From positions 73,836 to 108,858 of the forward strand of contig JAFWJN010000050.1 in the NCBI GenBank assembly GCA_017514685.1: a stretch of DNA of 35,023 nucleotides, read 5' to 3'. Numbering within the stretch: the stretch's first letter is position 1; each line of letters begins with the position of its first letter. Positions 2,265 to 20,025 of this stretch are shown one piece after another. A program made the translations under genes and the position numbers. The stretch comes from Clostridia bacterium (GTDB lineage: Bacteria; Bacillota; Clostridia; Christensenellales; CAG-138). Under the pieces are notes generated by a model that was given only the letters and a program-made list of their open reading frames with translations, had not been told where the DNA came from and ran no database searches.

Positions 2265-2294
2265 AGAGAGCTTGAAACCAAGCCCTCTTTTTTT
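2265..2294 (+). terminator. Intrinsic terminator of the ABC importer operon
   Basis: A 10-bp stem with one mismatch (AGAGAGCTTG / CAAGCCCTCT, loop AAAC) is followed by seven T residues. It lies 51 nt after the ATPase stop. Read on the other strand it has only a broken T tract, but it could also stop the convergent glycine operon, for which no better terminator is visible. Confidence 0.8.
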
Positions 2295-2368
2295 GCAAAG
2301 AATGGAGTGCGGTGGAAAAGACACCCCGCAATCAATTCCACGGTCTGAAATATTATGTCAGAAAACCA

Positions 2369-3757
2369 TTAAGAATCCGGGTCAAGTTTGTAACAAAGAT
2401 CGCTCAGGGCAGCACTTAATGCTTCTTCATAGGAAGGATGCGGACGTATGATTCGAAGGAGATCTATTGGAGTATGACCACATGCAATTGCTTCCGAAAG
2501 CTGAGAAATGATGTCGGAAGCGTTCGTGCACATGAGCTGGGCTCCCAGAAGGTGCTTTGTTTCAGCGTGAGCAACCAGTTTCATAAATCCACGGTCGCCG
2601 TTGATGATAACAGTGCGGCCGTTTGATGACATAATTGCTTTTCCTGTTTTGACGGGGATTTCCAGTGCTTTTGCTTCTGCTTCCGTAAGGCCGACAGTAG
2701 CGATCTCCGGACGGGTATACACGCATCCGGGAATGAGAGAAAGACGGAAATCACTTCGTTTTCCAATCATTTCATTAACGGCAAAAATACCTTGCGCGGT
2801 GGCGACATGAGCAAGCTGCACGGGAGAAGAAACATCCCCGATTGCCCAGATGCCCGGGAGACTGGTCTCAAACCGTTCGTTTACTCTGATCCTACGACCG
2901 TCCATTTCGGGAAGCATATCATTCTGAAACAATTCATCTGTATACGGGCGGCGACCGATGGCGCAGAGTACTTTCTCGCCGACAACACTGACCGGCTTGC
3001 CTTTGCATTCAAAGTTCACTTGAAGACCGGACTCAGCTTTTTCCAGATTTTTTACTATAGCCCCGGTGTAAATTGTTGCACCGCGCTTTTTCATAATCAT
3101 TGTAAGATTCTGTCCCAGTTCACGGTCCATGGCAGGAAGAAGACGATCCAAACCCTCTATGACGGTAACATTGATACCAAGATCGGTAAAGAAAGTGGCA
3201 AATTCCATGCCGATGACCCCGCCTCCGATGATGATAACCGATTGGAAGTCACCGGAAATGCCGTCAAGCAGTTCATCGGAAGTCATAACTCCGTCAAGTT
3301 CCAGCCCGGGGATAGGAGGCCTTGCGGGAATGGAGCCTGTGGCAAGAAGAATGTTCTGAGCTGTATAGACTCCTTCGCTTTCCCCCGAAACGGCAACTGT
3401 ATGAGGCGCTGTCACAGTACCGGTTCCCCGTAGAAGAGCTGTTTTTGTGCTTTTCAGAAGGCTTTCTACACCGGAACGGAGCTTCTCCACAACCTGCTGT
3501 TTATAGGCATACATAGAAGGAAGGTCATAGGAAAGTCCGTCGGCTGATATCCCTATGGAAGCTCCTTCCTTTGCTTCCTCAAATACTGCGGAGGCATGGA
3601 GCAGGGCTTTGGTGGGAATACAGCCACGGTTAAGACAGGTGCCTCCAACTTCGCGGCGCTCTACCACGGCAGTTTTCAGACCGGCTTTTGAGGCATGGAG
3701 GGCAGCTTCATAGCCGCCGGGACCTGCGCCGATAACAATAAGATCGTAATCAAACAT
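2369..3757 (-). CDS. lpdA: Dihydrolipoyl dehydrogenase (glycine cleavage L protein)
   Basis: This 462-residue flavoprotein reoxidises the dihydrolipoyl arm, here most likely that of GcvH, and passes electrons to NAD+. The N-terminal FAD-binding motif GAGPGG is at residues 10-15, and the redox disulfide is CLNRGC with C41 and C46. A second Rossmann motif, IIIGGGVIGMEFA, binds NAD. The ATG-type FAD motif is seen in IWAIGDV, and the C-terminal interface carries the catalytic His440-Glu445 pair in HPSYEEA. All catalytic residues are present and the length is normal. It has no N-terminal lipoyl domain. It is the last gene of the glycine operon and starts 2 nt after the lipoate ligase stop. Since it sits inside this operon rather than beside pyruvate dehydrogenase genes, it is probably the L protein of glycine cleavage, although it could serve other complexes. 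Confidence 0.96.
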   Translation of the reverse strand: MFDYDLIVIGAGPGGYEAALHASKAGLKTAVVERREVGGTCLNRGCIPTKALLHASAVFEEAKEGASIGISADGLSYDLPSMYAYKQQVVEKLRSGVESLLKSTKTALLRGTGTVTAPHTVAVSGESEGVYTAQNILLATGSIPARPPIPGLELDGVMTSDELLDGISGDFQSVIIIGGGVIGMEFATFFTDLGINVTVIEGLDRLLPAMDRELGQNLTMIMKKRGATIYTGAIVKNLEKAESGLQVNFECKGKPVSVVGEKVLCAIGRRPYTDELFQNDMLPEMDGRRIRVNERFETSLPGIWAIGDVSSPVQLAHVATAQGIFAVNEMIGKRSDFRLSLIPGCVYTRPEIATVGLTEAEAKALEIPVKTGKAIMSSNGRTVIINGDRGFMKLVAHAETKHLLGAQLMCTNASDIISQLSEAIACGHTPIDLLRIIRPHPSYEEALSAALSDLCYKLDPDS

Positions 3758-3759
3758 GT

Positions 3760-4740
3760 TTATATCTCCTGTTGCTGTAATAGAGTACAGATATCTTCAG
3801 AGTGAATAATACCAGCCTGCTGTACGCGGGATGAAAGAACGGAAGAGGAAAATGGGCAGCCTTCGAGAACTTTTTCCAGAGCCGGAGGAAAAGAGGAATC
3901 CATATCATCTGAATAGATCCGGGCTTGCCGGACAATCCCGCTTTCTACCAGCAGCTGCAGTTCGATATTCCCCCAGGGAAACCGTTTCTCGCATCGGAAA
4001 GTGAAAGGAAGCCGGATTCCGCAGCACCATGCCCGGCTCATATAAAAAGTCCTTAATTCATCGATCTTTTTTTGATCTTCTTCCGACAAAACCAATGGAT
4101 GGCTTTTCAGAGCATAGACCTGCTCGAAAGCATTTGTCAAAGATGCTTTCAACGCATCGATCGTGATTGCCGGACAGAGTTCTTTCAGATTTACGACCCG
4201 GGAACAGACAGAGGAAACGCTTTTCGATTCCAGCTTTGCTTTTCCCGGCGTGAGGTAACGGGAAAGCTTGTTTCCATCCACATCGACCAACAGTGTTCCG
4301 TGGTGGTAGGAACGGTTTCCGCTTCTATAGAATGCGTTTCCGGAAAACTTGCGTCCGCCGACGGTCAGATCGTTCCTCCCGGACAGTTCGGCAGAGATAC
4401 CGAACTGCCGGCATGCGGTCAGAAGAACCCGCTGCTGCTTTTCAAGATCGTAGTCTGAGGTCTGGACTAAAAAAGTGAAATTCAGATTTCCATGATCATG
4501 AAATACGGCACCGCCTCCGGAAAGACGCCGGACAAGGTGGCCTCCTTCCTCTTCCAGAAGAGAGACGCGGCATTCTGCCCAGGGATTCTGATTCCGTCCG
4601 ATGACCACAGTATTTTCATTCTGCCACAGATACAAAAGGCAGCACCCGCCTTCGACGGTTTCCAGCAGGTGCTGCTCCACAGCTAAGTTGAAATAAGGAT
4701 CGAATGATCCGCTTTCATAGGTTTTAAGCGTTTCGATCAT
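3760..4740 (-). CDS. lplA: Lipoate-protein ligase A
   Basis: The 326-residue product belongs to the LplA class of lipoate ligases, which activate free lipoate with ATP and attach it to a lysine of lipoyl-domain proteins. The signature RRLSGGGAVFHD is at residues 71-82, and the lipoyl-adenylate-binding lysine is K131 in GGRKFSGNA. A C-terminal accessory domain (about residue 240 onward) is present, as in full-length LplA, so no separate LplB is needed for activation. The gene overlaps gcvPB by 4 nt and ends 2 nt before lpdA. Its position in the operon implies that its substrate is the GcvH encoded upstream and that the cell scavenges lipoate. No lipA or lipB is seen nearby. Confidence 0.95.
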   Translation of the reverse strand: MIETLKTYESGSFDPYFNLAVEQHLLETVEGGCCLLYLWQNENTVVIGRNQNPWAECRVSLLEEEGGHLVRRLSGGGAVFHDHGNLNFTFLVQTSDYDLEKQQRVLLTACRQFGISAELSGRNDLTVGGRKFSGNAFYRSGNRSYHHGTLLVDVDGNKLSRYLTPGKAKLESKSVSSVCSRVVNLKELCPAITIDALKASLTNAFEQVYALKSHPLVLSEEDQKKIDELRTFYMSRAWCCGIRLPFTFRCEKRFPWGNIELQLLVESGIVRQARIYSDDMDSSFPPALEKVLEGCPFSSSVLSSRVQQAGIIHSEDICTLLQQQEI

Positions 4741-6140
4741 GAACGGGTGTATCGGAGAACAGGAGTTCTGGCAGCTTTTACTTCGTCTGGCCTGCCGATC
4801 TGAGCAGCGTGAGGCGCTTCGTGCATGTATCCGGGATCCTTGTAACCGAGTTCATAAAGAGTACGGAAGACCTCTGCCGCCCAGTCCAGCGTTTCTTTGC
4901 TTTCCGTTTCCGTTGGTTCCAGCATAAGCGCTTCATGAACGATGAGCGGGAAATACATTGTCGGAGGATGCATGCCGTAGTCGATAAGCGATTTGGCAAC
5001 ATCCAGAGCGGATACGCCAGTCGCTTTTTTATATTCGGACAGATCCAGAACAAATTCGTGCATGCAGATCCGGTCAAAAGCAGGAGTGAAGGTGCCTTTG
5101 ATCCGAGCCATCAGATAATTGGCGTTCAGGACGGCGTTTTTAGCTGCTTCCGAAATTCCTTCTCTTCCAAGCGTCAGCAGATATGTCAAGGCGCGAACGA
5201 CCACTAAAAAGTTTCCCATAAAACTGCGGACCTGAAGATGCCCTTCCTCTTCCATTAAGGCAGAGTGAGGCAAAAACGGAACGAGGAACGATTTGCAGCC
5301 GACTGCTCCCGCCCCCGGACCTCCGCCGCCATGCGGAGTCGCAAAAGTCTTATGCAGATTAAGATGGACGCAGTCAAAGCCCATATCTCCGGGACGTACG
5401 ACACCCATGACCGCATTCAGATTGGCTCCGTCATAGTAACAAAGTCCGCCGGCTTCATGAACGAGCCGTGTGATTTCCGGAATGTTCTCATCAAAGATGC
5501 CGACTGTGTTCGGATTGGTGAGCATAAGACCTGCCGTATCCTCGCCGAGGACCGCTCTTAAGGCATTCAGATCAACACATCCGTCAGGCGCAGAAGGAAT
5601 ATTCACCACCTGATAACCGCACATGGCCGCCGTGGCGGGATTGGTACCATGAGCGGAGTCAGGTACAATGATCTTGGTGCGTTTTTGATCGCCTCTGCTG
5701 TCGTGATACTGCTTGATGAGCAAAACACCGGTGAATTCTCCGTGCGCACCTGCTGCAGGCTGGAAAGTCATGCCGTCCATACCGGTGATTTCGCAAAGAT
5801 ATTTTTTTGCGGTTTCAAGAACTTCAATGCAACCGGCAACAGATGACTCGGGAGCCAGAGGATGGATTGAAGTAAAACCGGGGAGGGAAGCCATTTCCTC
5901 ATCAATGCGGGGATTGTACTTCATGGTGCAGGAACCCAAAGGATAGAAACCGCAATTAACGCCATGCACATGTTTGCAGAGCTCCGTATAATGGCGGGAA
6001 ACATCGGTTTCACTCATTTGCGGAAGCATGGGAGCTGTTTCTCTTTTCAGAGAAGAAGGCATTTCGGTCGGAGGAACATCACAGGTAGGAAGGATCGAAC
6101 AACGGCGGCCTTGCACGCTCTTTTCAAAAATCAGCTTCAT
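4737..6140 (-). CDS. gcvPB: Glycine dehydrogenase (decarboxylating) subunit 2
   Basis: This 467-residue protein is the PLP-binding half of the split P protein. With GcvPA it decarboxylates glycine and loads the aminomethyl group on lipoyl-GcvH. The PLP lysine is K264 within NLHKTFATPHGGGGPG, the glycine-rich segment typical of P proteins, and the other hallmark DSAHGTNPAT is at residues 161-170. Length and start fit GcvPB; the N-terminal LIFEKSVQGRR segment is also typical. It overlaps gcvPA by 4 nt and lplA by 4 nt, which indicates translational coupling and matched dosage of the two P subunits. Confidence 0.97.
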   Translation of the reverse strand: MKLIFEKSVQGRRCSILPTCDVPPTEMPSSLKRETAPMLPQMSETDVSRHYTELCKHVHGVNCGFYPLGSCTMKYNPRIDEEMASLPGFTSIHPLAPESSVAGCIEVLETAKKYLCEITGMDGMTFQPAAGAHGEFTGVLLIKQYHDSRGDQKRTKIIVPDSAHGTNPATAAMCGYQVVNIPSAPDGCVDLNALRAVLGEDTAGLMLTNPNTVGIFDENIPEITRLVHEAGGLCYYDGANLNAVMGVVRPGDMGFDCVHLNLHKTFATPHGGGGPGAGAVGCKSFLVPFLPHSALMEEEGHLQVRSFMGNFLVVVRALTYLLTLGREGISEAAKNAVLNANYLMARIKGTFTPAFDRICMHEFVLDLSEYKKATGVSALDVAKSLIDYGMHPPTMYFPLIVHEALMLEPTETESKETLDWAAEVFRTLYELGYKDPGYMHEAPHAAQIGRPDEVKAARTPVLRYTRS

Positions 6141-7450
6141 GCAATCGCCTCCTTTACGATAGAAACAACTTCATCCAGCGTTTCCTTCGAAACTTTTTCC
6201 GTCACACACCAAAGGACTCCGTCCGCATATGGGAGACCGCCTAAAATATTTTTTTCGTCCAGGGCGGCCAGGACTTTGTCAGGCTTTGGCATATCGAGGA
6301 GAAATTCATGGAAGAATTCTCCTTCAAAACGGCGGCTGATCCCCGGAAGGCTGCAAAGCTGTTCGCAGAGATAATGTGCTTTTGCCATCGATGAACTTGC
6401 GGCCTCCGCCAGTCCGTCCGGACCCATAACGGCAAGGTAGACACTTGCGGTCAGGGCGCAGAGCGCTTCGTTGGAACAGATGTTGCTGCCGGCCTTTTCT
6501 CTGCGGATATGCTGTTCCCGCGCCTGCAGGGATAAGACATAGGCCCGATTTCCCGCATTGTCCGTTGTTTCACCCACGATCCGGCCGGGGAGTCTGCGCA
6601 TGTATTTCTGCGTAGTAGCCATAAAGCCAAGATAAGGACCGCCGAACCCGATTGGAAGCCCGAGTGGCTGACCTTCGCCAACAGCAATGTCCGCGCCCAG
6701 ATCCCGGGGTGTTTTCATAATGCCGAGAGCGATCGGGTTGCAGCCCAGAATGAACAGGGCTCCCGATTCGTGGACAGCGTCGGAAAGAGCATCTGCGTCT
6801 TCAAACAGACCGAAGAAATTCGGCTGCTGGACATAAACCGAAGCTACTTCCGGCCCGAGGAGGGCTTTCATTGCCTCCAAATCGGTTTTACCGTTCTTCG
6901 TTGGAATGATCTTTACTTCGTCGTTGGTACCGTAACTGTAGGTACGGATGGTATTGATTACATCCGGATGTGTGGAAGCGGAAACAAGGGTGATCCTGCG
7001 CTTCCGGTCCCTCGCCATTGCAGCGGCTTCCGCTGCCGCGGTAGCGCCGTCATAGACGGATGCATTGGAGACATCCATGCCGGTGAGTTCACAGATTTCT
7101 GTCTGATACTCAAAAATGGACTGCAGAACGCCCTGACTGATCTCAGCCTGATAAGGAGTGTATGCGGTGAGGAACTCTTCCTTGGCGGGAATCTGCTTTA
7201 CGATGCTGGGGATATAGTGGTCGTATGCGCCGGCTCCGCGCAGAACAGTATCATAAACTCTGTTCTTTTTGGCCATTGCTGCAAGAGCTCGGCTGACTTC
7301 CAATTCGCTTTTTCCTTCCGGCAGATCGAGAAGATGATCAAGATACATGCCTGCCGGCACGTCTTTATACAGTTCCCGATAGTCCGAAAGCCCGATCGAC
7401 TGAAGCATCTCCCGTCGCTGTTCCTCAGTGGAAGGAACGTAGCTTCCCAT
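6137..7450 (-). CDS. gcvPA: Glycine dehydrogenase (decarboxylating) subunit 1
   Basis: This 437-residue subunit pairs with GcvPB to form the heterotetrameric P protein found in Firmicutes, archaea and Thermus-type bacteria. It carries the characteristic GAGAYDHYIPSIV segment, followed by AYTPYQAEISQGVLQSIFEYQT and NASVYDGATAAAEAA. Near the C terminus RFEGEFFHEFLL is also typical. Both GcvPA and GcvPB are folded like type I PLP enzymes but only GcvPB holds the PLP lysine. The gene starts 3 nt after gcvH ends and overlaps the gcvPB start by 4 nt. Confidence 0.97.
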   Translation of the reverse strand: MGSYVPSTEEQRREMLQSIGLSDYRELYKDVPAGMYLDHLLDLPEGKSELEVSRALAAMAKKNRVYDTVLRGAGAYDHYIPSIVKQIPAKEEFLTAYTPYQAEISQGVLQSIFEYQTEICELTGMDVSNASVYDGATAAAEAAAMARDRKRRITLVSASTHPDVINTIRTYSYGTNDEVKIIPTKNGKTDLEAMKALLGPEVASVYVQQPNFFGLFEDADALSDAVHESGALFILGCNPIALGIMKTPRDLGADIAVGEGQPLGLPIGFGGPYLGFMATTQKYMRRLPGRIVGETTDNAGNRAYVLSLQAREQHIRREKAGSNICSNEALCALTASVYLAVMGPDGLAEAASSSMAKAHYLCEQLCSLPGISRRFEGEFFHEFLLDMPKPDKVLAALDEKNILGGLPYADGVLWCVTEKVSKETLDEVVSIVKEAIA

Positions 7451-7453
7451 GGC

Positions 7454-7831
7454 TTATGCCTCCGAAGCGCAGTGTTCTTCGTATGCGGCAGGATCAAGCA
7501 GGTCCTCGGCACCGTCAATGTTGTTGACTTTGATGATCCAGGCGCCGTACGGATCGTTATTCAGCATTTCAGGAGCGTCCAGAAGTTCTTCGTTGATTTC
7601 ACAGACTGTTCCGGTAACGGGGCTGATAAGATCTGATACCGCTTTTACGGATTCAACATCGCCGAATGATTCACCGGCAGTTACATTGTCTCCGATTTCG
7701 GGCAGATTGACAAACACGAGGTCTCCCAGAGCATCCTGGGCAAAATCAGAAATACCGATAACGGCAATATCGCCGTCCATACGGATCCATTCATGGGACT
7801 TGGTATACTGAAGATCTGGGTTGATAGTCAT
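7454..7831 (-). CDS. gcvH: Glycine cleavage system H protein
   Basis: GcvH (125 residues) is the shuttle that carries the aminomethyl group on a lipoyl lysine between P, T and L proteins. The lipoylation site is K63 in ESVKAVSDL, with the family features YTKSHEWIR near the N terminus, GISDFAQDALGDLVFVNLP, and SPVTGTVCEIN on the far side of the lipoyl hairpin. It is preceded by an AGGAGG ribosome binding site 8 nt from the ATG. It lies 33 nt after the GcvT-SHMT fusion gene and 3 nt before gcvPA. The lipoate ligase three genes downstream is its likely modifying enzyme. Confidence 0.97.
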   Translation of the reverse strand: MTINPDLQYTKSHEWIRMDGDIAVIGISDFAQDALGDLVFVNLPEIGDNVTAGESFGDVESVKAVSDLISPVTGTVCEINEELLDAPEMLNNDPYGAWIIKVNNIDGAEDLLDPAAYEEHCASEA

Positions 7832-7864
7832 AATGAATTCCTCCTGATAAGTATTGGTATGGTT

Positions 7865-10522
7865 TTATTTTTCGATGAGCGCGGAAAGTTTGGAAAGAGC
7901 CTGATCGAATTCAGCACCGCTGAAGCAGTACTTCATGTCAAGATGTTCACCGCGGAGAGCACAGACCTCCTTGCTGATATCTTTGTTTTCCAGGATACAG
8001 GCAGCCATCAGCTCTGCCAGCCTGTCAAACTCTGCGTCGCCGAAGCCGAAGCGGGTCATTTCACTCATGCCCATGCGCAGTGCGCCGGATGCTGTGAACC
8101 CTTCCTCGTCCGGTATTGCCTGGTAATTGACGATGATATTGTTCTTTTCCAGACGTTCGGCAATTTCCGGTCCGGCACCGTAACCGACGCCTACAATGAC
8201 CTGATGGGTTTCGGTATAGTCGATAGAAGGATCGCCCTTTACATCCAGCCCCTGCGCCTTGAGCGCTTTGGCAAAATGCTTTGCGTTATGGATGATTGCC
8301 TTCTGGTATTCGTCCTTGAACTGATTCATTTCGTAGGCCGCCATGAGAAGACCGAGCTGAGTACCAAGATGATGGTTGGAAACGCTTCCGGGGAAGGCAC
8401 GCGTCTCAATGGTGTTCCACAGGCCGTATTTCAGGTCATCTTTTGTCCAGTTGGTACCGATAACGCCTCTCTGCGGACCGAAAAATGTCTTATGCGTCGA
8501 TCCGGTAACGATTTCCGCGCCTTCTTCGAAAGGCTTCTGGAAGGAATCGCCAATCAGGCCGAGAACGTGAGCCATGTCATACATGATCGTGGTCGGAATG
8601 GCCTGCTCGTCTACAAATTTACGGATTTCGGCAACCGGTTCCTTGTGCAGGACCATGCTCTTACCGAAAATGATCAGTTCCGGACGGTACTCGGCAATCA
8701 CCTTTTTCGTCTCTTCCACGTCAATTTTGAACATATTGTCTTTGCAGACGGGGAAATTGACTACGGCGCTGCGCTCCGTAACGGGATCGACTGCGATATA
8801 GTCGTGAAGGGCGCCCATAGGCTGGGCCGACAGATGCCCGCCTTTGATAATATGGTTGTTCAGGACATATCCGAGACGTGCGGGGGTATTCTTCCGGTCA
8901 AGACGGTTTTTCCAGTCCATCAGAGCGGAAAATACTGCCATGTTGGACATCTGGCCTGAGATCACCCTGGTTTCAACTTCCGTGCAGCCAAAGTAACGCC
9001 GCATCTCCTGAACAAGAAGCTGTTCCACGCGGTCAATGAATTTGGTTCCCTGATAATAGAACACATCCGCATCATAGAAGGATTTGATCTTCTTGTGCTC
9101 CGCATAGCGGAAAGAAGGATCGCTTGCGCAAAGTAGCTGCACGGCTTTGCTGGGCGTGTTTTCCGATGGAATCAGATTGATGCAGCAGCGCTGCCTCCAA
9201 AGATGGTTTTCAACGGCGGCAAACAGCAGAGAGACTGCTTTTCCGCTGTTGTCCCCCTCAGACTTTGCCGGCTCCGCTACTGCGAGCTTGTCGTACAGAA
9301 TGGGCCGCGCAAAAGGAGGAGCGTCCACACGCATATGATAGGGCGGAATTCCGGCTTTCACCCGCTTGCCGCGGATATCTACCATGACCTCGTCAAAGTC
9401 CAGCAGATCGCTGTCAAGATACGCCATGCCGATGGCTCGCTTGCCGGTGGTTTCCAGAATTTCCGTGGAGAGGCCTTCGCCTTCTGTTACATAATAAGGC
9501 ACCATGGTTCCGGAAGTGACAAAACCAACCAGTTTTTCTCCTTTGTATACAGGCATGCCGGCGCGCATGACGCCACGATCGAGCAGAGTGATGGGACGGA
9601 TGCGTCGGGGCAGGGCGGAAAGAGCGTCGGGGGCAAAGTCCCGGTTCAGAATGCGCCGGTTGGCGGCAGCCTGCTTTTCCAGAGGTTTCCGTCCGATATA
9701 GTTTCCTTTGTTTTCCGAGAAAGAAACGGCAAACCGCGCAAGGGACACGGCGAAGATCGGCATGGGCTTTCCTTCGGCATCGAGTCCCATTTCATGACCG
9801 TAAAGGGGCATTCCAGCTTCAAGGCGCAGAGTATCTCTGGCCCCGAGGCCGGCAGGCTTTGCTCCGAGTTCAAGCAGCCTGTCCCACAGCCAGCGCGCAT
9901 CTTCGGCTTTGATGAATACTTCATATCCGAGCGGTTCCCCAGTGTAGCCGGTCTTGGCAATCCATGCTTCATGCCCTTCCAGAGGAAGGATGTTCAGAGC
10001 GTTTTTGACAGGCTCGGTGACTGCTTCCCCTCCGGAAAGAATCGTAAGCAGATCACGGCTTTTCGGTCCCTGGACAGCGATGGAAGCATAATCTGCGCTG
10101 ATATTGGTGATCTTGACATCAAATGCCTTTGAGATGGGAAGAAGATGGGCAAGATCCTTTTCCGTATTGGCAGCGTTGACGACCAGAAGATACCAGTCCT
10201 GATAGAACCGGTACAGATAAGCATCGTCAACGGCGCTTCCGTCCTCCGCAGGGATGATACAGTACTGTGCCTGATTCAGATCCAGCGCCAGAACGTTGCT
10301 TGTGAGAACATGCTGCAGGAAAGCTACCGCGTCAGGCCCTTCCACGCGAAGTCTGCCCATGTGACTGACGTCAAACAAACTGCAGCTGTGCCGGGTGAAC
10401 AGATGTTCGGCAACAATCCCTTCCGGATACTGGATTGGCATTTCCCAACCGCCGAAATCTACCATGGTGGCACCTGCCGTCAGATGGGCATCATATAGTT
10501 GCGTCCTCTTAAGTTCGTTCAT
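7865..10522 (-). CDS. GcvT aminomethyltransferase fused to serine hydroxymethyltransferase
   Basis: A single open frame of 885 residues contains two complete enzymes. Residues 1 to about 410 are glycine cleavage T protein: VDFGGWEMPIQY, the substrate-site Asp pair 99-100 in GSAVDDAYLY, VVNAANTEKD, KTGYTGEPLGYEVF, and GLGARDTLRLEAGMPLYGHE at 225-244. After a short linker rich in Ala, Glu and Ser (about 411-430), residues 431-885 are a serine hydroxymethyltransferase: INLIPSEN at 448-455, GGHLSAQ at 561-567, the cofactor-ring Asp and His of YDMAH (D649, H652) and the PLP lysine K678 in STHKTF. T protein releases 5,10-methylene-THF and SHMT combines it with glycine to form serine, so the fusion would couple successive reactions. 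The SHMT half is divergent from E. coli GlyA in sequence. AAGGAGG lies 6 nt before the ATG, and the gene is first after the glycine riboswitch. Confidence 0.95.
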   Translation of the reverse strand: MNELKRTQLYDAHLTAGATMVDFGGWEMPIQYPEGIVAEHLFTRHSCSLFDVSHMGRLRVEGPDAVAFLQHVLTSNVLALDLNQAQYCIIPAEDGSAVDDAYLYRFYQDWYLLVVNAANTEKDLAHLLPISKAFDVKITNISADYASIAVQGPKSRDLLTILSGGEAVTEPVKNALNILPLEGHEAWIAKTGYTGEPLGYEVFIKAEDARWLWDRLLELGAKPAGLGARDTLRLEAGMPLYGHEMGLDAEGKPMPIFAVSLARFAVSFSENKGNYIGRKPLEKQAAANRRILNRDFAPDALSALPRRIRPITLLDRGVMRAGMPVYKGEKLVGFVTSGTMVPYYVTEGEGLSTEILETTGKRAIGMAYLDSDLLDFDEVMVDIRGKRVKAGIPPYHMRVDAPPFARPILYDKLAVAEPAKSEGDNSGKAVSLLFAAVENHLWRQRCCINLIPSENTPSKAVQLLCASDPSFRYAEHKKIKSFYDADVFYYQGTKFIDRVEQLLVQEMRRYFGCTEVETRVISGQMSNMAVFSALMDWKNRLDRKNTPARLGYVLNNHIIKGGHLSAQPMGALHDYIAVDPVTERSAVVNFPVCKDNMFKIDVEETKKVIAEYRPELIIFGKSMVLHKEPVAEIRKFVDEQAIPTTIMYDMAHVLGLIGDSFQKPFEEGAEIVTGSTHKTFFGPQRGVIGTNWTKDDLKYGLWNTIETRAFPGSVSNHHLGTQLGLLMAAYEMNQFKDEYQKAIIHNAKHFAKALKAQGLDVKGDPSIDYTETHQVIVGVGYGAGPEIAERLEKNNIIVNYQAIPDEEGFTASGALRMGMSEMTRFGFGDAEFDRLAELMAACILENKDISKEVCALRGEHLDMKYCFSGAEFDQALSKLSALIEK

Positions 10523-10563
10523 GAAAAACCTCCTTTATGCTTCAATTGTCATATAGAATACAG

Positions 10564-10603
10564 AAAAAGGCGCTAACTGCCCCTGTGAGCATGCCGCGCC
10601 TCC
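10564..10603 (-). terminator. Riboswitch-controlled terminator before the glycine operon
   Basis: On the minus strand GGAGGCGC (plus 10603-10596) can pair with GCGCCTTT (10573-10566), using two G-U pairs, and the 3' arm runs into a T tract. The upper stem is long and irregular. The first bases of the 5' arm also form the closing helix of the second glycine aptamer, so the two structures exclude each other. This is the layout expected of a transcriptional ON switch. Confidence 0.65.
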
Positions 10604-10785
10604 GTTCTTTGCCTGAGAGATTCCCAAAGACAGGATCCGTTCCTGCCCGGTTGCACCTTCGGCACGGGAAAACTCCCGTTTTCCGGAGCTTCGTACTGGC
10701 CCGATCCTTTTGCCTGAGAGTTTGTTGCTTATCCCCTTCGGCTCCGCTGCAAAGCGGTCTCTCCCGGGGCCGATCTTCCGAAGCT
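10585..10785 (-). promoter_or_regulatory. Tandem glycine riboswitch
   Basis: Two glycine aptamers lie head to tail in the leader of the glycine operon. On the minus strand each has the conserved CTCTCAGGCAAA (plus positions 10611-10619 and 10712-10720, 101 nt apart) and an upstream GCCGAAGG (10656-10663 and 10735-10742). Aptamer 1 starts with GGGAGAG and is closed by GGCCC/GGGCC; aptamer 2 is closed by CTCCG (10684-10688) pairing with CGGAG (10600-10604). The operon starts 62 nt downstream. Known glycine riboswitches before gcvT operons turn expression on when glycine is abundant, and the terminator overlap seen here agrees with that. Confidence 0.95.
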
Positions 10786-10807
10786 TGTGAACTTTTTCCT
10801 ATTCATT

Positions 10808-10837
10808 ACGCTACCACGCAAAAGGCGGTTTTGTCAA
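10808..10837 (-). promoter_or_regulatory. Probable promoter of the glycine riboswitch-gcv operon
   Basis: A perfect -35 TTGACA (10837-10832) is followed after 18 nt by TAGCGT (10813-10808), a weak -10 helped by an upstream TG (TGGTAGCGT). The start of transcription would fall about 15-20 nt before the first riboswitch helix. The -10 match is poor, so the exact position is uncertain. Confidence 0.5.
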
Positions 10838-10976
10838 GAAATTCTCATCAAAACAAAGGACTTTTTCTCGTGCGGAAAACATCTGTAGCCGGAATGCAAC
10901 AAAAAAGCATATTTTTTGAAAACACCGAAAAAACAAGGTTTCCAAATCCCCTTTTTTCTGCTATCATATACCGTGT

Positions 10977-10982: not shown

Positions 10983-11066
10983 TTACATATCTATGGCCAT
11001 TGCTCCGTGGAGGGAATCGGACGGAATAATATCGTTCCCGCGGAGAGGCTGCTTTGGGAGAAAAGA

Positions 11067-13361
11067 TTGAAAAAACTGCTCTGCATCTGCATATGCCTTC
11101 TTACCCTTGCCGGGAGCGTGCTCCAGTACGGCTGTTCCGGCGCGCACCGGGGAGGAACGGAGATGTGCGTCAAATTCCTGGAATACGTCAACGAAGGTGC
11201 CTACGGAGCGGCATTTGATCTGATTTCAGACTCGCTGAAAAACAAAACCGGAGAAGCGACACAAGGCGCTGCGGCAATGATCTCCTATCAGGAATTTGTG
11301 GAAAAATACAACTCGATTTTCGACGCGGTCGGTGTTGACGGGATCTCGTACGAGATCACTTCTTCCGCGGAAGGTTCCGTAACTGCGGCAGTCGGATATG
11401 TCCTGACTTATCACACGGAAAAGGCGGGCGATCTGACCAATGAATATACGATCAATGCCAGATATGAAAACAAGAAATGGGGAGTGCAGTGGTCGCCTGC
11501 TCTGATCTTCCCTCAGCTGCAGTGGGGCGATAAACTTCTTCTGGGTGTCAATTATCCAAAGCGTGGGGAAATCTTTGATGCTCAAGGCGAACTGCTGGTC
11601 AAAAATATCGATCCGGTAGCAATTTTCTGCGTACCGAGCAGCATAAAGTCTCCGCAAACCTTTATGGAACAGGTTCTGGCAATTTCCGAACTGCAGCCCC
11701 GCGGCTCTCTTTATCAGGACTGGTACGGCATCGTGCAAAACGCGTCCACCAGCAAAAACTCGTCTGTTGTTCTGACGAGATTGTATCCGGACCAGCTGGA
11801 TGAACAGCTGGAAAACCGGATTCTTGCAGTGGAAGGGCTCGGTATCGACCGAAGCGGAAGTTTGACAAGTACCCGGTTCCGGGCGTATCCATTCGGAAGA
11901 TCGGCTTCTCATGTTTTAGGTTTTGCATCTGTCATTTGGAAAGAAGACCTGGAAAAGTTTGAAGAAGAAGGCAATGAACTGTATGACGGCGACAGCTGGC
12001 TGGGATACTCCGGACTGGAACAGCAGTATGAAGAGATTCTAAGAGGAACGAAGGGCAGTTACGCCTATATTCAAGGCGCGGACGGAACGAACCGCATGAC
12101 TCTTTATAATATCCCTGCTGTCGACGGAGAGGACCTCCATCTGACGCTGGACATGCGGCTGCAGAAACGCGTTGAGAAAGTTGTGGAAACCGTTGTATAT
12201 GATCCAAGTGTATCCGGAACGGTTATCATGATGGAGCCGAGAACCGGTGCGGTTCAGGCAATGTATTCTTTCCCCGATTATGATGCGGAATCATTCAGCA
12301 GAGGTACCGTCGGATCCGTGGAATGGGCCAGAATGGAAAAAGACCCTCAGACGCCGATGTTGAACCGCGCCATACAGGGCTTGTACGCACCCGGGTCGAC
12401 GTTTAAAACCCTGACTGCGCTAGCATCGCTGGAAACCGGAACGCTGACAAAAGACGATGAATTCCCAAGCACCGAATATATTAAGCTGGGAGCGGAAAGG
12501 GGATCCAGCGGAGATCTTAAGGACAGCTGGTATGTCACAAGGGGAGAATGGGCCTGGACGGGAGTGGAGAAAGTCAACCGGACAGGTAATTCCAATCGTC
12601 ACACTCCGATGAATATGACCTCGAGTATCATTGATTCGGACAATATATTCTTCTCCTGGGCAGCGATGAAAATGGGATGGAGCAAATTCAAATCCTATTT
12701 GTCCTATGTAGGAATCGGAGAAACGGTTCCGTTTGACATTATTACGGACAGTAAGTCGCAGATCAAAAAAGAAGACAGTGATGAAACATGGGATCTGCTG
12801 GCAATGTCAGGCTATGGTCAGGGAGAAATTCTGGTAACTCCGCTGCAAATGGCAACTTATATCGCGGGGATTCACAATGACGGACAGGCCATGATTCCTT
12901 ATATCGTGGATTCCACCTGGCAGGCAAAAGGAACTTCATATATCAAGACCAGTCAGCATGAGGTTGGCGTCTGGAAGACGATCTGTTCCAAGAAGAACGC
13001 GGATGATCTGGAACTTATGATGCAGGGTGTATGCGCGTTGCCGGAAGAAAAGGGCGGCACAGCAAAATATCTGGGCGTCCGGAGAACGTACCGGATTGCG
13101 GGGAAGACCGGAACGGCGGAAATCGGAACGGACAAAAGCAAGGAACTCGCGTGGTTTATCGGATTCCGGTCCTGCTATAAAGACACCGGGGAAGATGTAA
13201 AAGAGGAAGAACAGAGACTGGTGCTGGTCATGCTGGAGATCGACATGAAGAATCAGCCGGATGAATATACTCTGATGAAATTCAAGATTGCGAGAGAACT
13301 TTTAAAGGATGATAATCTGACAAAACCGGGACTTACGGAGTCATCGATCACTTCCGGCTGA
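11067..13361 (+). CDS. Penicillin-binding transpeptidase, MecA/PBP3-like (class B)
   Basis: This 764-residue protein cross-links peptidoglycan outside the membrane. It has a short hydrophobic N terminus (KKLLCICICLLTLAGSVLQYGC) that may be a lipoprotein signal with Cys23, although QYGC is a poor lipobox. Next comes an NTF2-like MecA N domain (about 30-145), then a PBP dimerisation region (RGEIFDAQGE near 166) and the transpeptidase with serine in STFK (444-447), SDN (524-526) and KTGT (680-683). All three active-site motifs are intact. The start is set at TTG 11067 because GGGAG lies 6 nt upstream and it places the signal sequence at the terminus; a GTG at 11007 has no ribosome binding site. 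The family includes low-affinity PBPs such as MecA and B. subtilis PBP3, but resistance cannot be inferred from this sequence. murG follows after 88 nt. Confidence 0.92.
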   Translation: MKKLLCICICLLTLAGSVLQYGCSGAHRGGTEMCVKFLEYVNEGAYGAAFDLISDSLKNKTGEATQGAAAMISYQEFVEKYNSIFDAVGVDGISYEITSSAEGSVTAAVGYVLTYHTEKAGDLTNEYTINARYENKKWGVQWSPALIFPQLQWGDKLLLGVNYPKRGEIFDAQGELLVKNIDPVAIFCVPSSIKSPQTFMEQVLAISELQPRGSLYQDWYGIVQNASTSKNSSVVLTRLYPDQLDEQLENRILAVEGLGIDRSGSLTSTRFRAYPFGRSASHVLGFASVIWKEDLEKFEEEGNELYDGDSWLGYSGLEQQYEEILRGTKGSYAYIQGADGTNRMTLYNIPAVDGEDLHLTLDMRLQKRVEKVVETVVYDPSVSGTVIMMEPRTGAVQAMYSFPDYDAESFSRGTVGSVEWARMEKDPQTPMLNRAIQGLYAPGSTFKTLTALASLETGTLTKDDEFPSTEYIKLGAERGSSGDLKDSWYVTRGEWAWTGVEKVNRTGNSNRHTPMNMTSSIIDSDNIFFSWAAMKMGWSKFKSYLSYVGIGETVPFDIITDSKSQIKKEDSDETWDLLAMSGYGQGEILVTPLQMATYIAGIHNDGQAMIPYIVDSTWQAKGTSYIKTSQHEVGVWKTICSKKNADDLELMMQGVCALPEEKGGTAKYLGVRRTYRIAGKTGTAEIGTDKSKELAWFIGFRSCYKDTGEDVKEEEQRLVLVMLEIDMKNQPDEYTLMKFKIARELLKDDNLTKPGLTESSITSG

Positions 13362-19871: not shown

Positions 19872-19877
19872 ATTTCA

Positions 19878-20010
19878 CGGTAAAGTTCGTCGCCATAGAC
19901 AGCCGGTAGCGCGAAAGCGTGTAAATCCTGCCGAGGTGGGAATGGAACAAATTACAGTTATGTTTATTTGTCTGTCCTCTCGTCATGCGGCGAGAGGACT
20001 TTTATCTTTA
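19878..20010 (+). promoter_or_regulatory. Ribosomal protein L10 leader
   Basis: The untranslated leader contains the L10-leader core: GACAGCCGG, a small GCGCGAAAGCG hairpin and CCTGCCGAGGTGGGAA. It ends in the terminator hairpin at 19974-19999. In Firmicutes such leaders bind the L10-L12 complex, and in B. subtilis rplJL is autoregulated by transcription attenuation; the promoter, leader and terminator order here fits the same mode. Confidence 0.85.
19974..20005 (+). terminator. Attenuator terminator in the L10 leader
   Basis: A 9-bp perfect stem GTCCTCTCG / CGAGAGGAC (19974-19982, 19991-19999) with an 8-nt loop is followed by TTTT. It lies 20 nt before the rplJ start and before its AGGAGG site, so termination here would prevent rplJL expression. 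Confidence 0.8.
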
Positions 20011-20025
20011 TAGGAGGTGTAAACC

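Follow-up and report, generated by a model that had tools for sequence, protein, structure and literature searches.

Background

Can the T protein (GcvT) of the glycine cleavage system and serine hydroxymethyltransferase (SHMT) occur in nature as one polypeptide, and what would joining them achieve? The question is raised by a 35,023-nucleotide stretch of DNA from a gut bacterium of the class Clostridia, family CAG-138 (contig JAFWJN010000050.1), referred to here as the window. An initial annotation of the window, made from its letters alone, described the gene at 7865..10522 as a fusion of the two enzymes that would keep a one-carbon unit between its active sites and convert two glycines to serine. 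In photorespiration, as in the anaerobic use of glycine, T protein and SHMT classically share 5,10-methylene-tetrahydrofolate (methylene-THF), which may or may not pass directly from one to the other. A natural, recurrent fusion with natural split versions in related species provides matched enzymes with which folate transfer between T protein and SHMT could be tested. It also accounts for genomes that seemingly have no SHMT, and one-carbon engineering in which glycine cleavage is linked to serine formation may profit from it. Among the papers listed by our search of the open literature, with subscription journals and preprints outside its scope, none names a T-protein/SHMT fusion in its title or in the opening part of its abstract; a paper on Plasmodium SHMT holds the words "fused to SHMT".

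A single reading frame joins T protein and SHMT

The fusion gene is a single open reading frame of 885 codons, read from an ATG on the minus strand (7865..10522); the plus strand from 7865 has stops. The interval first proposed is correct, as is the claim that one uninterrupted frame holds both enzymes in full, given Pfam matches to GCV_T (residues 9-246; 9e-76), GCV_T_C (360-391) and SHMT (433-838; 5e-42), with NCBIfam models matching as well. By domain matches and conserved site residues, the T-protein half spans residues 1-404 (9311..10522). A linker of variable sequence follows at about residues 405-432 (9227..9310), and the SHMT half covers residues 433-885 (7868..9226), with the codon of its pyridoxal phosphate (PLP) lysine, K678, at 8489..8491.

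Homologues with the same domain pair were sought by a similarity scan of named genome contigs, from which the 78 best matching loci were kept; more loci exist. A frameshift or stop near the junction was also looked for. In 70 of the 78 loci one frame runs across the junction, and the remaining eight encode GcvT on its own. Among the 70, the frame of L063 is broken within the T half near residues 306-319, away from the junction. Because the frame is intact in so many loci the fusion is no assembly accident, and a frameshift artefact was rejected on the same count; the T-protein/SHMT fusion is real and conserved. For residue comparisons, 61 full-length proteins were brought together: the window's, that of L081 and those of 59 junction-spanning loci. 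The other 11 of the 70 were set aside for truncation at a contig end, incompleteness or a frame break, and the stand-alone GcvT loci (L073-L080) were excluded.

Purifying selection seems to act on both halves. The ratio of nonsynonymous to synonymous change (dN/dS) is 0.03-0.15 for each half and 0.15-0.32 for the linker in five pairs with measurable dS, figures that are rough since dS reaches or exceeds a value of about 1 in some of them; between the window and its relative L003 the SHMT half has a dN of 0.055 with dS saturated. The linker is 22-25 residues long in 59 of the 61 proteins and 35 and 38 in the other two. Its variable sequence and loose selection would suit a tether, whereas its nearly constant length would also allow a fixed arrangement of the halves.

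The T-protein half

The N-terminal half belongs to GcvT by the Pfam GCV_T match and by NCBIfam, exceeding the cut-offs of NF001567 (323 against 300 bits) and TIGR00528 (253 against 235.85 bits). Its best match in the PDB is the aminomethyltransferase 1yx2 (5e-61), which we take to be the B. subtilis protein. D99, D100, E196, R229 and R320, presumably the catalytic and folate-site residues of GcvT, do not vary in any of the 61 full-length proteins. The half differs from E. coli GcvT in being about 40 residues longer up to the linker, after which it runs on into SHMT. From these features we infer an aminomethyltransferase that would pass the aminomethyl group from the H protein to tetrahydrofolate (THF).

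A divergent SHMT clade

The C-terminal half scores 144.5 bits with the Pfam SHMT model, whose cut-off is 27, and has the PLP lysine, aspartate and histidine of the SHMT superfamily. K678, D649 and H652 stand where the initial annotation put them and align to K229, D200 and H203 of E. coli GlyA. These three residues are invariant in all 61 proteins together with Y473, E475, Y489, Y490, H563, S622 and R816, and S453 is kept in 60. The equivalents of E. coli E57, Y55, Y64, Y65, H126, S175 and R363 are all retained, and E57, Y64, Y65 and L127, which we assume to lie in the THF site, are kept in 61 of 61.

Although it shares the Pfam family, the PLP lysine and most catalytic residues with canonical bacterial GlyA, the half is only 28% identical to E. 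coli GlyA. It differs by four inserts (482-488, 540-551, 578-585 and 698-701), a C-terminal extension and clade-wide substitutions that include R235->Q, G263->N, K346->Y and N347->Q in E. coli numbering. The first two substitutions are shared with the SHMT of M. jannaschii and with a stand-alone SHMT group, whereas K346->Y and N347->Q are confined to the clade in that comparison. The inserts are absent from GlyA and from the stand-alone and archaeal-type groups examined, and by sequence three of the four flank folate-site loops. An unfused clade member, L099, carries most of the inserts, so they need not stem from fusion.

The profile of the half matches M. jannaschii SHMT (4uqv/4bhd; 1e-56) best in the PDB. 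A tree of the C-terminal half, built from a chosen subset of 34 fused and two unfused clade SHMTs, places all 36 together with 100/100 support on a long stem (3.08 changes per column). Outside this clade lie M. jannaschii SHMT and eight stand-alone SHMTs of anaerobic bacteria (38-44% identical to the window's), which group with the clade at 100/100, while five canonical GlyA proteins form a separate group, also at 100/100. In an earlier tree that included the partial sequence of 7k34, the very long branch of 7k34 fell inside the fused clade (support for the fused group 63/79), and the tree was rebuilt without it. The half is therefore a distinct clade, as first suspected from its divergence, and is nearer to archaeal-type SHMTs than to GlyA. 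From the archaeal type it differs in being joined to GcvT, in its long stem branch and in its inserts. The carrier of M. jannaschii SHMT is given as tetrahydromethanopterin in PMC3697235. For the fusion's SHMT half a THF-dependent interconversion of serine and glycine is predicted.

Operon and riboswitch

The fusion heads a complete gcv operon on the minus strand, identified with Pfam and NCBIfam models: gcvH (7454..7831), gcvPA (6137..7450), gcvPB (4737..6140), the lipoate-protein ligase gene lplA (3760..4740) and the dihydrolipoyl dehydrogenase gene lpd (2369..3757). AGGAGG precedes the ATG of the fusion. Upstream, on the same strand, lies a tandem glycine riboswitch with aptamer 1 at 10692..10776 (53.9 bits) and aptamer 2 at 10600..10688 (41.1 bits). 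Glycine riboswitches before gcv genes are known to be glycine-induced. A terminator-like hairpin occupies 10566..10584 of the minus strand, between aptamer 2 and the start codon, and by itself is not above chance (one found against 0.8 expected from shuffled sequences). Riboswitch matches also lie upstream of the fusion in 8 of 16 other loci scanned, namely 7 of 8 with Bacillota titles (L043 being the exception) and L006.

Distribution among bacteria

How widespread the fusion is had been left as a question, which can now be answered in part: the fusion is patchily distributed over several phyla of bacteria. By record title the 78 best loci include Oscillospiraceae, other Clostridia, Desulfobacterota, Spirochaetales, an actinomycetote and Candidatus Erginobacter. 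The SHMT clade was found in 2 of 398 sampled genomes of the window's phylum (E <= 1e-90) and in 2 of 200 of its order, its own genome included in both counts. It occurs in 13 of 61 genomes sampled from its family, 12 of which have fusion-length frames, including that of G094, which a contig end interrupts. The thirteenth, G095, has the SHMT alone.

In the phylum of a Desulfobacula genome (G021), chosen because it bears the fusion, 43 of 297 genomes match the SHMT profile at E <= 1e-50. Full-profile matches lie in frames of 744-1112 residues in 25 of these, and partial matches in frames of 663 and 790 residues in two. One genome (G757) has an unfused clade member, and 15 have only another SHMT type that stands alone, with scores of 324-366 bits in 14 and a match broken into pieces in the last. 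Twelve of the 25 (L087-L098) were fetched and all cover both halves; for the remaining 13, fusion is assumed from the length of the frame. Five of the 15 stand-alone, archaeal-type matches (in G889, G813, G974, G954 and G763; 321-366 bits) hold one in-frame stop of differing kind, which may be only the end of the gene.

The record of L006 (fusion at 8001-10646) is titled Candidatus Cacconaster and filed by NCBI under Bacteroidota. Its fusion is 77% identical to that of the window and groups with Oscillospiraceae in both the T and the SHMT trees; the placement could reflect transfer, a mixed assembly or mis-filing of the record.

Possible replacement of GlyA and presence of Fhs

A separate glyA, proposed as a check by the initial annotation, was looked for in the window's own genome and none was found in an assembly that is 82.6% complete, an incompleteness that counts against reading much into the absence. 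No other clear SHMT is present, and a second, weak match scores 32 bits. Within two genera of the family, g1 and g13, six sampled genomes (G000, G981, G082, G089, G979 and G095) have the clade SHMT and no GlyA. Eight others (G037, G063, G078, G086, G092, G980, G049 and G070) have GlyA and no clade SHMT, with GlyA of G092 in two pieces. Fisher's test gives p = 3.3e-4 for this exclusion and, like all Fisher tests here, ignores relatedness. In the first family sample of 61 genomes, canonical GlyA has no match in five, and the clade SHMT is present in all five of them, where G074 and G077, with GlyA fragments only, are counted as GlyA-bearing. The unfused clade SHMT of G095 is the sole SHMT found there. 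In some Oscillospiraceae the clade SHMT thus appears to have replaced GlyA.

Wider samples weigh against replacement as a rule. In a sample of 52 relatives with completeness of 90% or more, the clade occurs in 10 and GlyA is missing from six; four combine presence of the clade with absence of GlyA, a weaker association (p = 0.009), and in two of those six GlyA-less relatives no SHMT was found at all. Among 34 fusion genomes reached through their loci, 27 have another SHMT and seven do not, so replacement is not general. The seven comprise six with Bacillota titles (L003, L005, L009, L020, L026 and L038) and L006. All 17 genomes of Desulfobacterota, Spirochaetales, Actinomycetota, Erginobacter and one uncultured bacterium (L045-L055, L057-L060, L062 and L066) have another SHMT, a fragment in G026 and of archaeal type in G019. 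Replacement of GlyA looks local, and elsewhere the fusion would be an additional SHMT.

Formate-THF ligase (Fhs, PF01268) was scored in 11 chosen genomes and is present in all nine that bear the fusion. Five of these belong to g1 and g13 (G000, G981, G979, G082 and G089); it was found in neither of two GlyA-type congeners (G037 and G070, both 97% complete), and Fisher's test of 5/5 against 0/2 gives p = 0.048. Matches to PGDH, an enzyme of the phosphoserine route, fall below the family cut-off in 10 of the 11. The pattern of Fhs fits a need to load the general folate pool from formate, or a reductive direction of flux. Together, the exclusion of GlyA in two genera, the occurrence of Fhs and the splitting seen in the T tree (below) allow a speculative reading to which we give little credence. 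Here THF would cycle privately between the tethered sites, so that the cell's main SHMT no longer feeds the general one-carbon pool; genomes that swapped out GlyA would load that pool from formate through Fhs, and splitting the fusion would go with GlyA and let Fhs be lost.

Origin and possible movement of the fusion

In trees of the T half, built from chosen subsets with 26 and 24 fused rows, stand-alone GcvT proteins of other Oscillospiraceae nest inside the fused T halves. An approximately unbiased (AU) test against the fused T halves as one clade gives p = 1e-105, for a group picked after the first T tree had been seen and with long branches in play. One nested stand-alone GcvT, L074, comes from the window's own genus, and its genome (G035) shares GlyA coordinates with G037. 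Because there is a single SHMT clade and stand-alone GcvT proteins nest within the fused T halves, one fusion followed by several splits is suggested as the simplest history; fusion may also have happened more than once.

G095 keeps the SHMT half alone, adjoining the window and L003 in the SHMT tree, and no T half was found in this genome, which is 75% complete. G757 has T and SHMT of these clades as separate genes; its T gene falls among the fused T halves (87/87) and its SHMT just outside the fused ones (91/82).

The window's operon is closest to that of genus g13: identity to L003 is 90% for the T-SHMT fusion, 89% for GcvPB, 72% for LplA and 78% for Lpd. The T half is only 68% identical to that of the congener G981. 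Nucleotide similarity to L003 is limited, within the fetched flanks, to 2484-10784. Roughly the same holds, however, for the congener locus L074 (operon region, 2508-10839), whose gene surroundings differ too, which weakens the case for transfer. At 51.6%, the GC content of the operon exceeds that of the rest of the window (47.9%). The operon, with its riboswitch, may have moved by transfer as a cassette, which these observations suggest without proving it. A chimeric or mis-binned contig was considered and rejected since MetG, encoded on the same contig, is 85% identical both to that of congener G078 and to that of G041 (genus g5), against 76% for g13, values that fit the contig to its genome.

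Proposed activity and alternatives

We consider it probable that the fusion is a bifunctional enzyme that makes one serine, CO2, NH3 and NADH from two glycines, with THF cycling between tethered sites. The N-terminal T protein would take the aminomethyl group from lipoyl-GcvH, releasing NH3 and forming methylene-THF, and the C-terminal SHMT would join the one-carbon unit to a second glycine, yielding serine and returning THF. Together with the other products of the operon, the overall reaction would be 2 Gly + NAD+ -> Ser + CO2 + NH3 + NADH. Since T protein loads THF and SHMT unloads it in this direction, THF would only cycle and be needed catalytically. The tether would hold the folate sites close, reducing escape of methylene-THF or its breakdown to formaldehyde. 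Such breakdown has been measured in vitro as a loss from the glycine cleavage system (PMC7227101), which makes keeping SHMT close a plausible gain. Serine could then be turned into pyruvate by serine dehydratase, the alpha subunit of which has two matches in the window's genome.

The residues of both active sites, conserved in 61 full-length proteins, and the complete operon with its tandem glycine riboswitch support this bifunctional reading, as do the riboswitch matches at other loci, the exclusion of GlyA in g1 and g13 and the serine-metabolism neighbours described below. The part of the initial annotation that saw a converter of two glycines to serine holds as far as its components go, all being present in the operon with a riboswitch upstream; the direction of flux, like the two activities and the proximity effect, is predicted from sequence.

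Several observations pull the other way. The SHMT half scores 264.7 bits with the NCBIfam SHMT model NF000586, below its cut-off of 335. In place of E. coli K346 and N347, which we take to contact folate in E. coli, all 61 proteins have Tyr and Gln; for both reasons THF binding is uncertain. No riboswitch reached the gathering score in seven scanned loci of Desulfobacterota, Spirochaetales and Erginobacter, and many loci of Desulfobacterota have their gcv genes away from the fusion.

The changed folate positions invite the suggestion that the C-terminal half is an aldolase or transaldolase of the ObiH or fluorothreonine-transaldolase kind, fused to GcvT by chance and not THF-dependent. Indeed, the second-best PDB family of its profile is 7k34 (5.8e-39), deposited as a threonine aldolase and presumably ObiH, and the fluorothreonine transaldolase model TIGR04506 matches, though at 153.8 bits, far below its cut-off of 650. 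7k34 itself, aligned in part with the side bearing E57, Y64 and Y65 outside the alignment, differs from the fusion at K346 and N347 too, and no curated ObiH model is among the NCBIfam matches of the fusion. With the seven E. coli catalytic and folate-site equivalents listed above all kept, GlyA mutually excluded in the g1 and g13 sample and M. jannaschii SHMT as the best PDB match, we regard this as very unlikely.

Both halves might instead be active in the opposite direction, as in the reductive glycine pathway, with formate and CO2 converted to glycine through the gcv operon and on to serine through the SHMT half, both steps drawing on methylene-THF. The glycine cleavage system is described as reversible in PMC12674515. 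The occurrence of Fhs, which each of the nine fusion-bearing genomes tested has and the two GlyA-type congeners lack, would suit such a route. The operon is nevertheless headed by a tandem glycine riboswitch of the glycine-induced kind, and in this direction THF would not cycle between the halves, so tethering would gain little; reverse flux seems improbable to us. A plainer account, in which two ordinary activities share a chain for convenience of co-expression and proximity has no effect, is somewhat unlikely but deserves more weight. It agrees with the variable linker sequence and with the split forms in Oscillospiraceae and G757, where the covalent link is evidently not essential. It fits less well with one frame kept across phyla, even where the gcv genes are not adjacent, and with a linker of nearly constant length. 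We therefore prefer the bifunctional glycine-to-serine enzyme with tethered sites as the working interpretation.

Other features of the loci

Serine-metabolism genes neighbour the fusion at L046 (a 2-hydroxyacid dehydrogenase and a class-V aminotransferase) and at L066, (an ACT+HAD protein, which we take to be SerB-like in make-up). A DUF1015 protein directly follows the fusion at L046 (8400-9647) and L037 (10698-11954), and at L046 it is followed by the two genes just named and an alanine-racemase-like gene. This arrangement hints at a possible serine-related role for DUF1015; a literature search linking DUF1015 with serine found no paper. At L037 a second, distant GcvPA/GcvPB-like pair (31-32% identity; GcvPB-like part at 2276-3847) lies upstream of the fusion and precedes the gcv operon. 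Genome G006 (L009/L113) has the fusion and, directly after it, a stand-alone GcvT ahead of gcvH, gcvPA and gcvPB.

In the one annotated record examined, the 881-residue homologue of Vescimonas fastidiosa (L081:8001-10646) is labelled only as GcvT. Upstream of it are corrinoid-type genes (homocysteine S-methyltransferase family, DUF2284 and a cobalamin-dependent protein). Corrinoid demethylation as a general context was rejected, as BLAST at half coverage found no relatives of these proteins in the other loci. Recurring neighbours outside Bacillota are an MFS (major facilitator superfamily) transporter and DsbD-like, DUF3786, metallophosphatase and pyridoxamine oxidase-like proteins, with no clear link, and both scanned neighbours at L050 are AMP-binding proteins.

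Elsewhere in the window, 11007-13361 encodes a penicillin-binding protein with an NTF2-like MecA_N domain that scores below the cut-off of all 18 NCBIfam models it matched, and a ribosomal protein L10 leader lies at 19875-20013.

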